From Rothia amarae (lineage in GTDB: Bacteria; Actinomycetota; Actinomycetes; Actinomycetales; Micrococcaceae): 64,000 nt of DNA. Position numbers and translations under genes: made by a program. The notes under the pieces are model-generated. The model had not been told where the DNA came from. It searched no databases and saw only the letters and a program-made list of their open reading frames with translations. Numbering within the stretch: the first letter of the stretch is position 1; each line of letters starts with the position of its first letter. This document shows, one piece after another, positions 21,238-62,699 of this stretch. Location: positions 1,054,001 through 1,118,000 of the forward strand of contig NZ_CP061538.1 in NCBI RefSeq assembly GCF_014705945.2. The letters are read 5' to 3'.

Positions 21238-21708
21238 ATGCAACTTGTAGTGTGCCCTGGCTCTTACGATCCCATCCACAATGGACACGTCGATATCATC
21301 ACTCGCGCCGCCAAAATTTACGGTAGCGTGATTGTGGCGATTGCTCATAATTCAGCCAAAAAATATACATTTTCGCTGGAAGAACGGCTTGCGATGGCAA
21401 GTGAGACATTTGGGCAGCTCGACGGCGTCTCCGTGGAGGTAATGCCTAATGTGTTGCTCGCTGATTTCGTAAAATCCAAGGGCGCTGCGTTGATGGTCAA
21501 AGGGGTGCGCAATCCATTGGACTGGCAGTACGAGGCGCAGATGGCGACGATGAATCGTCACCTCAACGGCGTCGAAACGTCGTTTCTTACCTCCGATCCA
21601 AAGTATTCGCAGCTTTCTTCCACTTTGATTCGTGATGTCACGAGCTATGGGGGAGACGTCAGTACGTTTGTGCCTCGCGCCGTGCAGAAAAGGCTCGAAG
21701 CGCGCTAA
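21238..21708 (+). CDS. coaD: phosphopantetheine adenylyltransferase
   Basis: 156 residues from ATG 21238, the family's usual start (MQLVVCPGSYDP); an upstream in-frame start at 21196 adds 14 unmatched residues. CoaD makes dephospho-CoA from phosphopantetheine and ATP. The nucleotidyltransferase motif GSYDPIHNGH and the C-terminal SSTLIR are present. There is no Shine-Dalgarno before the ATG, so the message may be leaderless or nearly so. rsmD-coaD adjacency is typical, here broken by the aminotransferase on the other strand. Confidence 0.95.
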   Translation: MQLVVCPGSYDPIHNGHVDIITRAAKIYGSVIVAIAHNSAKKYTFSLEERLAMASETFGQLDGVSVEVMPNVLLADFVKSKGAALMVKGVRNPLDWQYEAQMATMNRHLNGVETSFLTSDPKYSQLSSTLIRDVTSYGGDVSTFVPRAVQKRLEAR

Positions 21709-21832
21709 TTTCTGAGGCTAATCCCACAAAAATTGCGCTTGAACCGATTCCTCCCTCGTGGAATAGTTGCTTAGTAACCAAACTGCAACTAAAATTGTTA
21801 GTTGGTCAAAACTTTTCATAAGGGAGTTCGTC

Positions 21833-22378
21833 ATTACACGAAAAGATTCATCACCCCTGAAGATTTCAGTGAGAGATCTGAGTCATCGACCGGGGAGTAT
21901 GGAAACCCTGGATGAAGTAGTACCGGCGCCAAAAGATTTTGGCAACGCTCTGATTGGAGCGGAGGAGGGTTCGGATATCGAACTTAACCTTCGGCTTGAA
22001 TCCGTTGTAGATGGTATTCTGGTTTCCGGCACTGCAGCCGTTGAAGTTAACGGTGAATGTAGCTTGTGTCTTGATCCGGTTGCAGAAACCGTTTCAGCAG
22101 ATATCCAAGAGCTCTTCGTTTTTCAAAAGGCTCCTCAGGGAGGTCCGAATGACGAAGAAGACGAGCAGTATGCCGTTGAAGGCGATGTTATCGACCTTGA
22201 ACCGGTTCTGCGGGACGCAGTGATTTTGAAGCTGCCGTTCCAGCCCCTTTGTAAGGACTCTTGCCAAGGATTGTGTTCTGAATGCGGAATACGACTGGAA
22301 GAAGATCCGGGGCATCACCACGAGGTGCTTGATCCCCGTTGGAAGGCTTTAGAAGGTCTGCTCAACGAGGAGAAATAA
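21833..22378 (+). CDS. DUF177 (YceD family) protein with unusual start
   Basis: 181 residues if initiated at ATT 21833. DUF177 proteins sit ahead of rpmF in most bacteria and are linked to rRNA metabolism. The C-terminal half has CSLC and a CKDSCQGLCSECG cluster, consistent with metal binding. The only in-frame conventional starts are TTG 21767, which gives 22 extra unmatched residues, and GTG 21869, which would cut the conserved first strand SPLKISVRDL. The one good ribosome binding site, AAGGGAG (21820-21826), is six bases before the ATT, where the family start is expected. Confidence 0.85.
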   Translation: MTRKDSSPLKISVRDLSHRPGSMETLDEVVPAPKDFGNALIGAEEGSDIELNLRLESVVDGILVSGTAAVEVNGECSLCLDPVAETVSADIQELFVFQKAPQGGPNDEEDEQYAVEGDVIDLEPVLRDAVILKLPFQPLCKDSCQGLCSECGIRLEEDPGHHHEVLDPRWKALEGLLNEEK

Positions 22379-22415
22379 ACTTAATAATCGTAATTTCTAG
22401 AGAAGAGAGATAGCT

Positions 22416-22619
22416 GTGGCTGTTCCCAAGCGGAAAATGTCCCGTGCTAACACCCGCGCACGCCGTTCCCAGTGGAAGGCGTCCGTACCTCAGCTGGTTA
22501 AGACCGTTGAAAACGGTCGCGTAACCTACTCGCTGCCTCACCAGGCAAAGCTGGTTACTGACTCTGCAGGCAACGACTTGTTCTACGAGTACAAGGGCCG
22601 CAAGGTAGCTGACGCATAA
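22416..22619 (+). CDS. rpmF: 50S ribosomal protein L32
   Basis: A 67-residue L32 starting at GTG 22416 (mature N-terminus [10 protein letters not shown]). It is a basic protein of the large subunit; the actinobacterial form lacks the zinc-binding cysteines, as here. It lies 37 bases after the DUF177 gene and 8 bases before rnc, giving the classic DUF177-rpmF-rnc operon. Confidence 0.97.
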
Positions 22620-22627
22620 TAGTTAGC

Positions 22628-23314
22628 ATGAAAAACTCTGATTCATCAGATTTGTTGAAACGTCTCGGTGTCGATCTCGACACCGAGACGTTTCAGCATG
22701 CGCTGACCCACAGTTCCTATTCATTTGAGCACCCCGGCGCTCCCAATAACGAACGCCTGGAATTCCTTGGAGATTCTGTGCTTTCGCTGGCGATTGCCGA
22801 AGAAGTGTACCGACTTTTTCCTGAGCTGCCTGAAGGCGAATTGGTCAAGAAACACCATGTGGTTGTTTCGTCGTGGGCGCTGGCTAAGATTGCTCGTTCA
22901 CTCGACGTCGGCCCTCATATTCGGTTGGGCAAAGGCGAGAGAAAAACAGGTGGGCAAGATAAAGATTCCATTTTGGCGGACACTATGGAAGCAATTTTTG
23001 GTGCCTGCTATCTTCAATGCGGCCGGGAAACTGCCCGCGATTTAGTACTCCGCCTGGTGGCGCCCCTGCTGTGTGATGAAGAAATTCTTGACGCTGGCCG
23101 CGACTGGAAAACCGAGTTACAGGAAATTGTTCAGAACCGAAAATTGGGTAGCCTGGTGTACACCATTGAGCGCAGTGGCGCTGAACACTCACCAATTTAT
23201 ACCGCTACTGCCGTGATTGATGGAGAGCGATTTGAACAGAGCACCGGTTCTGCCTCCAACAAGAAAGAGGCAGAACGGCAGGCTGCTCGGGCAACCTGCA
23301 AAGTTCTTGTCTAA
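22628..23314 (+). CDS. rnc: ribonuclease III
   Basis: 228 residues. RNase III cuts double-stranded RNA and processes rRNA precursors. The catalytic signature NERLEFLGDSVL is at residues 41-52, with a second acidic site in DTMEAIFGA; the double-stranded RNA binding domain occupies about 155-225 (ASNKKEAERQAA near the end). The start, 8 bases after rpmF, implies co-transcription. A very long inverted repeat lies within codons 9-24, described separately, and may make the mRNA a substrate of its own product. Confidence 0.96.
   Translation: MKNSDSSDLLKRLGVDLDTETFQHALTHSSYSFEHPGAPNNERLEFLGDSVLSLAIAEEVYRLFPELPEGELVKKHHVVVSSWALAKIARSLDVGPHIRLGKGERKTGGQDKDSILADTMEAIFGACYLQCGRETARDLVLRLVAPLLCDEEILDAGRDWKTELQEIVQNRKLGSLVYTIERSGAEHSPIYTATAVIDGERFEQSTGSASNKKEAERQAARATCKVLV
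22653..22698 (+). other. intragenic 21-22 bp stem-loop at the 5' end of rnc
   Basis: TGAAACGTCTCGGTGTCGA (22656-22674) is followed after two bases (TC) by its exact reverse complement at 22677-22695. In RNA the stem extends outward through U22655-G22696, G22654-C22697 and U22653-A22698. With a realistic four-base loop this is a 21-bp duplex. No U-run follows, so it is not an intrinsic terminator. Its length suits RNase III, and its place inside rnc suggests autoregulation; this role is inferred. Confidence 0.9.
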
Positions 23315-23338
23315 CGAATCTTAAACTCAGAGAACTTG

Positions 23339-23372
23339 AGCCAGCACCAAAGAGGTGACTGGCTTTAGTTTT
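23339..23372 (+). terminator. possible terminator after rnc
   Basis: GCCAG-CACC pairs with GGTG-CTGGC around AAAGA, with one bulged A, then TTTAGTTTT follows. It is weaker than other terminators here but correctly placed between rnc and mutM. Confidence 0.5.
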
Positions 23373-23404
23373 ATCATTATGTAGCTACAACTCCAAGGAG
23401 AATC

Positions 23405-24361
23405 ATGCCTGAACTGCCCGAAGTCGAAGTGGTAAGGCGCGGACTCGCCCATCATTGTATAGGTTCCCGTATAGCAGATGTACGGGTGTTAGACGCGCGG
23501 TCTCTCCGCCGATTTGCGCCCGGAGTTTCAGAGTTTATACGACAACTAGAGGGACTGATGATTGTCGATTGTGCCCGGCGTGGCAAGTACATGTGGTTGG
23601 TTTTGGCCGATGAGATGGGCAATTTGCTCGATGATGCACTGGTAATTCATTTGGGTATGAGTGGACAGGTGTTGCTCAAGGACGCCGCGATGCCCGTTGA
23701 AAAACACCTGAAAATCGTCATGGAACTATACCGAGAAGACCAGAAGCCGCTACAACTGCGGTTTGTTGATCAGCGTATTTTTGGGGGAATGTTCCTTGAC
23801 CAGCTGGTTCCAACGCTGGGCGAGGGTGGAGAGCCCGTGCCGGCGGCGTCGTCCTCTAAACTTAGTCTCTCGCTCATTCCTCGAAGCGTGGCGCATATTG
23901 CCAGGGATCCGTTGGATTCGCTGTTCGACATCAAGTTATTGCGTAAGAAGCTACTCAAGACAAGTTCAGGTATCAAACGACTGTTACTAGATCAGTCCGT
24001 TATTTCGGGAGTGGGAAATATCTATGCCGATGAGGCGCTGTGGCGAGCGAAGCTTCACTATGCGAAACCCGCCCGCTCGTTAAGCTTGACCCAGACTAAA
24101 GAACTGGTCAACGCCGCCCAAGACGTCATGCACACTGCATTGGATGCTGGCGGAACGAGTTTTGATGCGTTGTATGTGAACGTCAACGGCGAATCGGGGT
24201 ACTTTGACCGTTCCCTCAACGCCTACGGGCAAGCGGGTAAGCCGTGTTCGCGTTGCCTGGATAACGGTAAGTCGTCCCTGATTGTCCGTGAACCCTTTAT
24301 GAACCGTAGTTCCTATCGCTGTCCGGTCTGCCAAAAAACACCCAAGTTTTCGCACCGGTAA
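23405..24361 (+). CDS. mutM: formamidopyrimidine-DNA glycosylase
   Basis: A 318-residue Fpg/MutM that excises 8-oxoguanine and cleaves the abasic strand. The N-terminal MPELPEVEVVRRG supplies the catalytic proline (Pro2) and Glu3. The helix-two-turn-helix region contains SGVGNIYADEALW, and the C-terminal zinc finger has CSRC and CPVC separated by 17 residues. An AAGGAG lies just before the ATG. mutM normally precedes smc in actinobacteria; here about 8 kb of minus-strand genes intervene. Confidence 0.96.
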   Translation: MPELPEVEVVRRGLAHHCIGSRIADVRVLDARSLRRFAPGVSEFIRQLEGLMIVDCARRGKYMWLVLADEMGNLLDDALVIHLGMSGQVLLKDAAMPVEKHLKIVMELYREDQKPLQLRFVDQRIFGGMFLDQLVPTLGEGGEPVPAASSSKLSLSLIPRSVAHIARDPLDSLFDIKLLRKKLLKTSSGIKRLLLDQSVISGVGNIYADEALWRAKLHYAKPARSLSLTQTKELVNAAQDVMHTALDAGGTSFDALYVNVNGESGYFDRSLNAYGQAGKPCSRCLDNGKSSLIVREPFMNRSSYRCPVCQKTPKFSHR

Positions 24362-45578: not shown

Positions 45579-45606
45579 ATGATTTTTGGTCTACGCTGAA
45601 ATCATT

Positions 45607-45640
45607 GAGCCCCGCATCTTGTATACAAGATGCGGGGCTC
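45607..45640. terminator. 34-bp perfect palindrome between khpA and rimM (terminator or processing site)
   Basis: GAGCCCCGCATCTTGTA is followed directly by its own reverse complement. The RNA would form a 15-bp G+C-rich stem with a UAUA loop. Only GTTTCATT follows, so the U-run is poor. It may be a weak or attenuating terminator, or a processing site inside the rpsP-trmD region. Confidence 0.7.
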
Positions 45641-45731
45641 GTTTCATTGAGGCCCTGTGCGATGAAGCTGTAAACTTAACCCTACGATGAGCGCAATTCG
45701 CGCTCGTGTTTGCCCATTCAAGGAGATTTCT

Positions 45732-58604: not shown

Positions 58605-58821
58605 GGGGTTCCCTTCACTGGAAATATCGAAGATAAGAATGCTCTTTTCTAAAATCTTACCCAATCAAAAGCAGGTGAACTGTCGAATAAGTAGTTTCAA
58701 CCGTGAGAAACCGCTCGTTTGTACTTCGAATTCCCAGCAATTTACACCGGTGGTTCAAAGACAAGGTAAGCCATCAATATTGGGATGTTTGTTTTCAGCG
58801 GCGTAAGAACAAAGAAAGAGG

Positions 58822-58856
58822 GGGGGCAACGATTCTTCCAAAGAATCGTTGCCCCC
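58822..58856 (-). terminator. intrinsic terminator of aceE
   Basis: A perfect 16-bp stem GGGGGCAACGATTCTT/AAGAATCGTTGCCCCC with a CCA loop, just past the aceE stop. On the minus strand a pyrimidine-rich CTCTTTCTTTG follows. Confidence 0.85.
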
Positions 58857-58874
58857 TGTTGAAAAACCTAAAGT

Positions 58875-62666: not shown

Positions 62667-62699
62667 AAGAAAGGCTTCACGAAAGTGAAGCCTTTCTTT
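62667..62699 (+). terminator. terminator of tRNA-Val
   Basis: A 14-bp stem, AAGAAAGGCTTCAC with GTGAAGCCTTTCTT, capped by a GAAA tetraloop and ending in T residues. Confidence 0.85.

Follow-up and report, generated by a model that had tools for sequence, protein, structure and literature searches.

A conserved RNA hairpin within the first codons of the RNase III gene of Rothia amarae and other Micrococcaceae, and its probable role in self-cleavage

The rpmF-rnc locus and its hairpin

In the stretch of Rothia amarae DNA analysed here (the window, 64,000 nucleotides), the gene for RNase III lies directly behind that for ribosomal protein L32 and holds a long hairpin close to its start. The features at the locus are as follows.

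22416..22619, + strand: rpmF, ribosomal protein L32, 67 aa, GTG start (from sequence and translation)
22628..23314, + strand: rnc, RNase III, 228 aa, the gene that holds the hairpin
22653..22673, + strand: 5' arm of the hairpin, 21 pairs in RNA (core arm 22656-22674)
22674..22677, + strand: hairpin loop, AUCU, 4 nt
22678..22698, + strand: 3' arm of the hairpin (core arm 22677-22695)

The rpmF stop codon is positioned 8 nt upstream of the rnc start, and because the distance is so short the two genes are probably co-transcribed. The rnc start has no clear Shine-Dalgarno sequence. Two exactly complementary 19-base arms, 22656-22674 and 22677-22695, can be read from the sequence on either side of a TC spacer, and this core is extended outward by a U.G pair (22655/22696), a G-C pair (22654/22697) and a U-A pair (22653/22698). 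As RNA, the hairpin spans 22653-22698 with 21 pairs and a 4-nt loop (-42.8 kcal/mol, z -8.4), running from position 2 of codon 9, which is base 26 of the frame, to position 2 of codon 24. The original prediction of 19-base arms, a two-base gap and an RNA stem of about 21 bp in codons 9-24 of rnc is thus confirmed in every part from the sequence. When folded in 600 nt of rpmF-rnc context, 20 of the 21 pairs have probabilities of 0.97-1.0 and the outermost pair 0.74, and none of 200 dinucleotide shuffles was as stable as the hairpin.

A repeat search found no other inverted pair within 1.2 kb. Across the 64-kb window the hairpin is one of 11 short-spaced inverted pairs (at least 15 nt) and the longest close match among them, at 22 nt and 95% complementarity; another of the 11 is also 22 nt long, but 73% complementary. 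It had been proposed that the stem is not a terminator, and this holds, as no U-run directly follows the stem in the sequence and the single terminator-like site in 21600-23500 lies away from it, at 22208-22220. A repeated element was likewise rejected, the genome containing no further copy (best match beyond both strands of the site, E 0.04), and Rfam covariance models run against 22000-23500 gave no matches up to E 1.

Conservation and selection of the stem in Micrococcaceae

All 35 genomes of the genus Rothia gave an rnc match, one of them (G001) in two pieces. In the complete genome of Rothia aeria (AP017895.1; L037 and L082), the rnc matches fall in two pieces in different frames, the cause being a faulty assembly or a gene that is broken; despite the split, the record still contains the hairpin region, which stands outside the counts given below. 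The genes that were folded come from part of the matching genomes, namely 5 + 60 + 20 fetched regions plus loci from searches. Removal of the two frame-split R. aeria entries, two sequences without an anchor (L075, L163) and the copies in 12 duplicate sets left 208 sequences, and exclusion from folding of two with ambiguous bases (L100, L139) gives the counts of 206. Micrococcaceae other than Rothia are represented by 49 distinct genes from at most 24 genera, with the Arthrobacter castelli gene entering twice (L046 and L142) in counts of 50 or 206, and a set of 26 representatives was drawn from at most 25 genera.

The register of the stem is identical in 34/34 Rothia genes and in 49/49 genes of other Micrococcaceae, and helices of at least 10 bp occur in this single register in all rows of the family. 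A covariance model of 17 pairs, built from 29 Micrococcaceae sequences and used at a threshold of E<=0.001, matches 241 of 245 genomes of the family; rnc was detected in 241/245 as well, and the four genomes without a model match are the same four without a detected rnc. Where model and gene coordinates were compared by eye, in four genomes (G062, G187, G134 and G037), the match lies within the first codons of rnc. The length of the helix is more variable. At least 13 uninterrupted pairs are present in 26 of 34 Rothia genes, and one internal mismatch pair is found in 6 of 28 distinct Rothia sequences, that of the closest relative (L004) included. Contiguous pairs number 21 in the R. amarae gene, 17.7 on average in other Micrococcaceae and 13-16 in the group f14. 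With small interruptions counted, at least 20 pairs form in 16/34 Rothia genes and in 15/50 rows of other Micrococcaceae, a total that was dropped as evidence because it fails to tell groups that have the stem from those that lack it.

One explanation for a stem at this position is that it is a by-product of the protein, in which the codons for K-R-L-G-V-D-I-D-A-E-T-F would pair with one another at their second positions, leaving codon bias to complete the palindrome. The motif, in the general form K-R-L-G-V-D-(I/L)-D-x-E-T-F, is indeed self-complementary, in that second codon positions face each other and third positions face first positions, and shuffled baselines are therefore already structured. 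Even so, the stem exceeds what the protein requires. When synonymous codons were permuted within each gene, with protein and codon set fixed and the same 75-nt window folded (300 shuffles per gene), the R. amarae rnc gave -42.8 as compared to -16.7 +/- 4.6 for the shuffles, none of which was as stable; together with the dinucleotide shuffles, this bears out the earlier claim that the stem is not there by chance. A z of -2 or below was reached in 34/34 Rothia genes, 24 of them with 0/300 shuffles as stable, and in 46 of 49 distinct genes of other Micrococcaceae (47/50 rows), 34 of them with 0/300. The weakest of the latter is L048 (35/300), and the three genes that miss z<=-2 still keep a helix of 16-18 bp. 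In windows slid along rnc in the 26 representatives, the first two, which overlap, have mean z of -4.2 and -3.1, as compared to -0.2 to -1.2 elsewhere in the gene.

Pairing between the arms points in the same direction. Forty-eight distinct windows from Micrococcaceae other than Rothia, scored at 15 core pairs, gave 678 Watson-Crick, 38 G.U, 0 A.C and 4 other combinations, whereas the means of fixed-protein shuffles were 438, 49, 65 and 167, and the highest Watson-Crick count in 200 such shuffles was 458. Among the 26 representatives, 98.2% of cells are paired and two-sided change occurs at 10 of 17 pairs, with all five covariation measures reached by 0/500 shuffles. Covariation within Rothia is weaker than across Micrococcaceae: 95.8% of cells are paired, and paired cells, two-sided cells and covariation score were reached by 0/500 shuffles, but two-sided change at 5/17 pairs was reached by 42/500, and pair types do not exceed shuffles (370/500 reach them). 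Covariation is clearest where the third position of a Gly codon faces the first base of a codon for Ala, Pro, Ser or Thr on the opposite arm. This pair is standard in 26/26 representatives with five pair types, and the wobble base of Gly tracks the amino acid opposite (GGC or GGT with GCC, GGG with CCC, GGA with TCC, GGT with ACC). Further compensatory changes include TTC (Phe) for CTC matched by GAA for GAG in Tersicoccus (L048), and, in two Rothia genes (L027, L028), the replacement of CGT and ACG by CGC and GCG, which changes Thr to Ala. The question raised earlier of whether relatives conserve or disrupt the stem can thus be answered: it is kept through Micrococcaceae with compensatory changes that in some cases replace an amino acid, and these changes, like the codon shuffles, lend good support to the proposal that coding and structure both constrain the arms. 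Base pairing, in other words, sets synonymous and even amino-acid choices in the arms. The codon shuffles, the Watson-Crick excess and the Gly-wobble covariation refute a protein by-product for Micrococcaceae, and its overall chance is very small, the f14 stem described below being a point in its favour and the codon-selected stems of relatives that lack the Rothia register a point against it.

The perfect dyad symmetry of the site would also suit a palindrome acting in DNA, as an operator or cruciform, or a structure in an antisense RNA, and an antisense RNA to rnc has been reported in S. coelicolor (PMC5775266). However, the two wobble mismatches are treated very differently on the sense strand. 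Across Micrococcaceae as a whole, the core pairs (15 per sequence) comprise 1070 Watson-Crick, 53 G.U, 1 A.C and 16 other cells, with shuffle means of 89 G.U and 107 A.C. Tolerance of G.U but not of A.C indicates that the sense mRNA folds, because in a DNA palindrome the two should be equally acceptable, and in an antisense RNA the preference should be reversed. This asymmetry, and the lack of a second copy in the genome noted above, disfavour DNA and antisense readings in Micrococcaceae, and scarcely any weight can be given to either. In f6, f8 and Microbacteriaceae (23 stems), there are 12 G.U and 9 A.C cells, all 9 at one pair, and as the asymmetry is absent there, the strand argument is limited to Micrococcaceae. 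For that family, a selected sense-strand RNA stem in rnc is as near to being demonstrated as sequence permits.

Other stems at the start of rnc

Several related families also have stems at the site of the Rothia one. Outside Micrococcaceae, z<=-2 was reached in 4/4 genes of f6, 6/7 of f8, 5/5 of f37, 15/18 of Microbacteriaceae, 3/5 of f7 and 2/4 of f47, as well as in the one gene each of f2 and f39, but those two have no 10-bp helix. Counts are lower in f27 (1/4), f15 (1/3), f14 (1/6), Corynebacterium (1/7) and non-actinobacteria (1/22), and no gene reached it in f3, f5, f9-f13, f17, f19, f20, f32, f35, f43, f45 or one Ilumatobacter. By this codon test, Corynebacterium and many further actinobacterial families are without the stem.

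In Mycetocola, Labedella and a few further groups, a different stem nearby in rnc replaces the Rothia register. A scan for stems of at least 13 contiguous pairs with a loop of 3-12 nt found one in the 5' part of rnc in 107/206 sequences, as compared to 1/206 in the remaining ~600 nt of the gene; none was found in 111 sequences covering the first 150 nt around the mutM start. The Rothia register accounts for 93 of the 107, and stems of unrelated sequence for the rest (Mycetocola 3, Labedella 2, f14 6, f7 g54 2 and f5 1). With folding windows set on their own stems, Mycetocola (z -4.2 to -4.6), Labedella (-3.8, -2.6) and f7 g54 (-3.3, -3.2) pass the codon test in 7/7 genes at z<=-2; the f5 stem (L164) fails it at z -1.8. 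The f14 stem reaches z<=-2 in just 5 of 12 genes, and may thus owe much to GC-rich coding.

A bulged stem is found at the same codons in a further group, which we take from its protein to be Streptomyces. It is codon-selected (z -2.4 to -4.6) in 14/14 anchored genes of 15, the remaining one (L230) having no anchor, and differs from the Rothia stem both in its bulge and in its unrelated sequence. No bulged stem was found in five genes of the related groups f22 and f38. Two sequences of the distant Oscillospiraceae (L088, L099) have hairpins of 15-16 bp about 27-65 nt before the rnc anchor window, possibly another independent case. It may be that rnc needs a duplex within its first 25-30 codons and that evolution has met this need repeatedly with unrelated sequences, a demand that would steer the choice of N-terminal amino acids, such that the substrate preference of RNase III would have shaped the RNase III protein itself; we give this extension somewhat less than an even chance.

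The gene order around these stems raises another possibility, that the duplex serves rpmF as a stabiliser or processing site at the 3' end of its message, blocking 3' exonucleases at the expense of rnc. Of 206 sequences, 154 have rpmF no more than 250 nt upstream of the rnc window, 40 have no adjacent rpmF and 12 were not assessable; stems of at least 13 bp are found in 106/154, 0/40 and 1/12 of these, respectively. This association is confounded by phylogeny, as the 40 without adjacent rpmF include 21 non-actinobacteria and 7 Corynebacterium. Furthermore, an element that protects rpmF would be expected to sit between the two genes, but this stem is part of rnc, and none of the actinobacteria scanned has a stem of at least 13 bp in the stretch from 200 to 60 nt ahead of the rnc window. 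Such a role in rpmF stability or processing is considered quite improbable.

Start codons at this junction are not always evident. Two f14 genes (L129, L193) and two f7 genes (L170, L172) have no in-frame ATG, GTG or TTG between the rpmF stop and the rnc stem, and a CTG right behind the rpmF stop (TGAGCTGACC in L129) may be a candidate rnc start codon.

RNase III as the probable reader of the stem

RNase III prefers duplexes of roughly two helical turns. The hairpin in rnc is a duplex that the enzyme could cut in its own message, and is probably an intragenic site of RNase III self-cleavage, a cis-acting element of the rpmF-rnc message that would be dual-coded with the RNase III N-terminus. 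The earlier suggestion of autoregulation at a site inside rnc is thus supported in part. This reading draws on the identity of the host gene, on a long plain duplex kept despite changes in sequence and register, and on precedent. Cutting by RNase III would create a feedback by which the enzyme probably limits its own production. Because rnc would be transcribed behind rpmF, such a cut could allow rpmF to be made in quantity while rnc is kept low, which is the most speculative step of the scheme. Counting against self-cleavage, many of the stems have 13-18 contiguous pairs, below about two helical turns.

There are three published systems for comparison. In S. coelicolor, two stem-loops in the polycistronic rnc message are cut by RNase III, the first upstream of rnc and the second inside it, and cleavage in the rnc cistron reduces the enzyme's own message (absB/rnc; Xu, Huang and Cohen 2008, via review PMC10126417). 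As in Rothia, rnc of S. coelicolor lies behind rpmF (PMC5775266) and has a stem-loop within it, a likeness drawn at the level of the rnc cistron. Unlike S. coelicolor, with its second upstream site, the actinobacteria scanned here have no stem of at least 13 bp in the upstream stretch given above. In S. aureus, the enzyme lowers its own level by cleaving the rnc coding sequence at U+296, in a structure described as conserved among staphylococci (PMC3386247). The structure lies inside rnc in both organisms, but U+296 is in a long irregular helix, whereas the Rothia stem is near-perfect and begins at base 26 of the frame. Finally, the E. coli rncO stem-loop in the rnc message is cut by RNase III in a negative feedback (as cited in PMC3386247); it is located at the 5' end of the message, in contrast to the Rothia stem inside the coding sequence, which is therefore not a leader element of that type. 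Among the literature matches listed, none deals with the rnc stem in Rothia, Arthrobacter or Micrococcaceae, or holds cleavage, 5'-end or RNase III mutant data for Rothia amarae. The rnc stem is best read as an unusually well conserved variant of a known autoregulation: the phenomenon belongs to a known class, and its spread through a whole family, its dual coding and its apparent reinvention are new among those matches.

Alternatively, the hairpin could control translation without RNase III, slowing or tuning initiation or early elongation of rnc, for instance in coupling to translation of rpmF. The short distance from the rpmF stop and the lack of a clear Shine-Dalgarno sequence fit such a role, as do the 16 of 19 listed Micrococcaceae genes in which a candidate start codon, ATG or GTG, precedes the first core pair by 23-32 nt, and the Labedella stem, which begins within the ATG start codon itself. 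Yet the distance from start to stem varies across groups from 23 to more than 50 nt, and the stem seems longer than simple tuning would need. Moreover, the gene encodes a double-strand RNase, and self-cleavage inside rnc has been published in two other bacteria. Translation control alone is thus judged unlikely, and an RNase III self-cleavage site remains the favoured reading of the stem.

Whichever factor reads it, the rnc stem shows clearly how a bacterial coding sequence can hold an mRNA element. A self-cleavage site would predict an RNase III feedback loop in a large actinobacterial group for which the literature matches listed include no such work, and the stems offer a natural series of lengths, mismatches and registers from which to learn what bacterial RNase III needs in vivo.

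Elsewhere in the window, perfect hairpins of 17 bp (58821-58857) and 14 bp (62667-62698) have no clear T-run after the stem. A nearly loopless palindrome at 45606-45641 (GAGCCCCGCATCTTGTA/TACAAGATGCGGGGCTC), without a long T-run, lies about 45 nt before an ORF start at 45687 (+ strand) and could be an operator.
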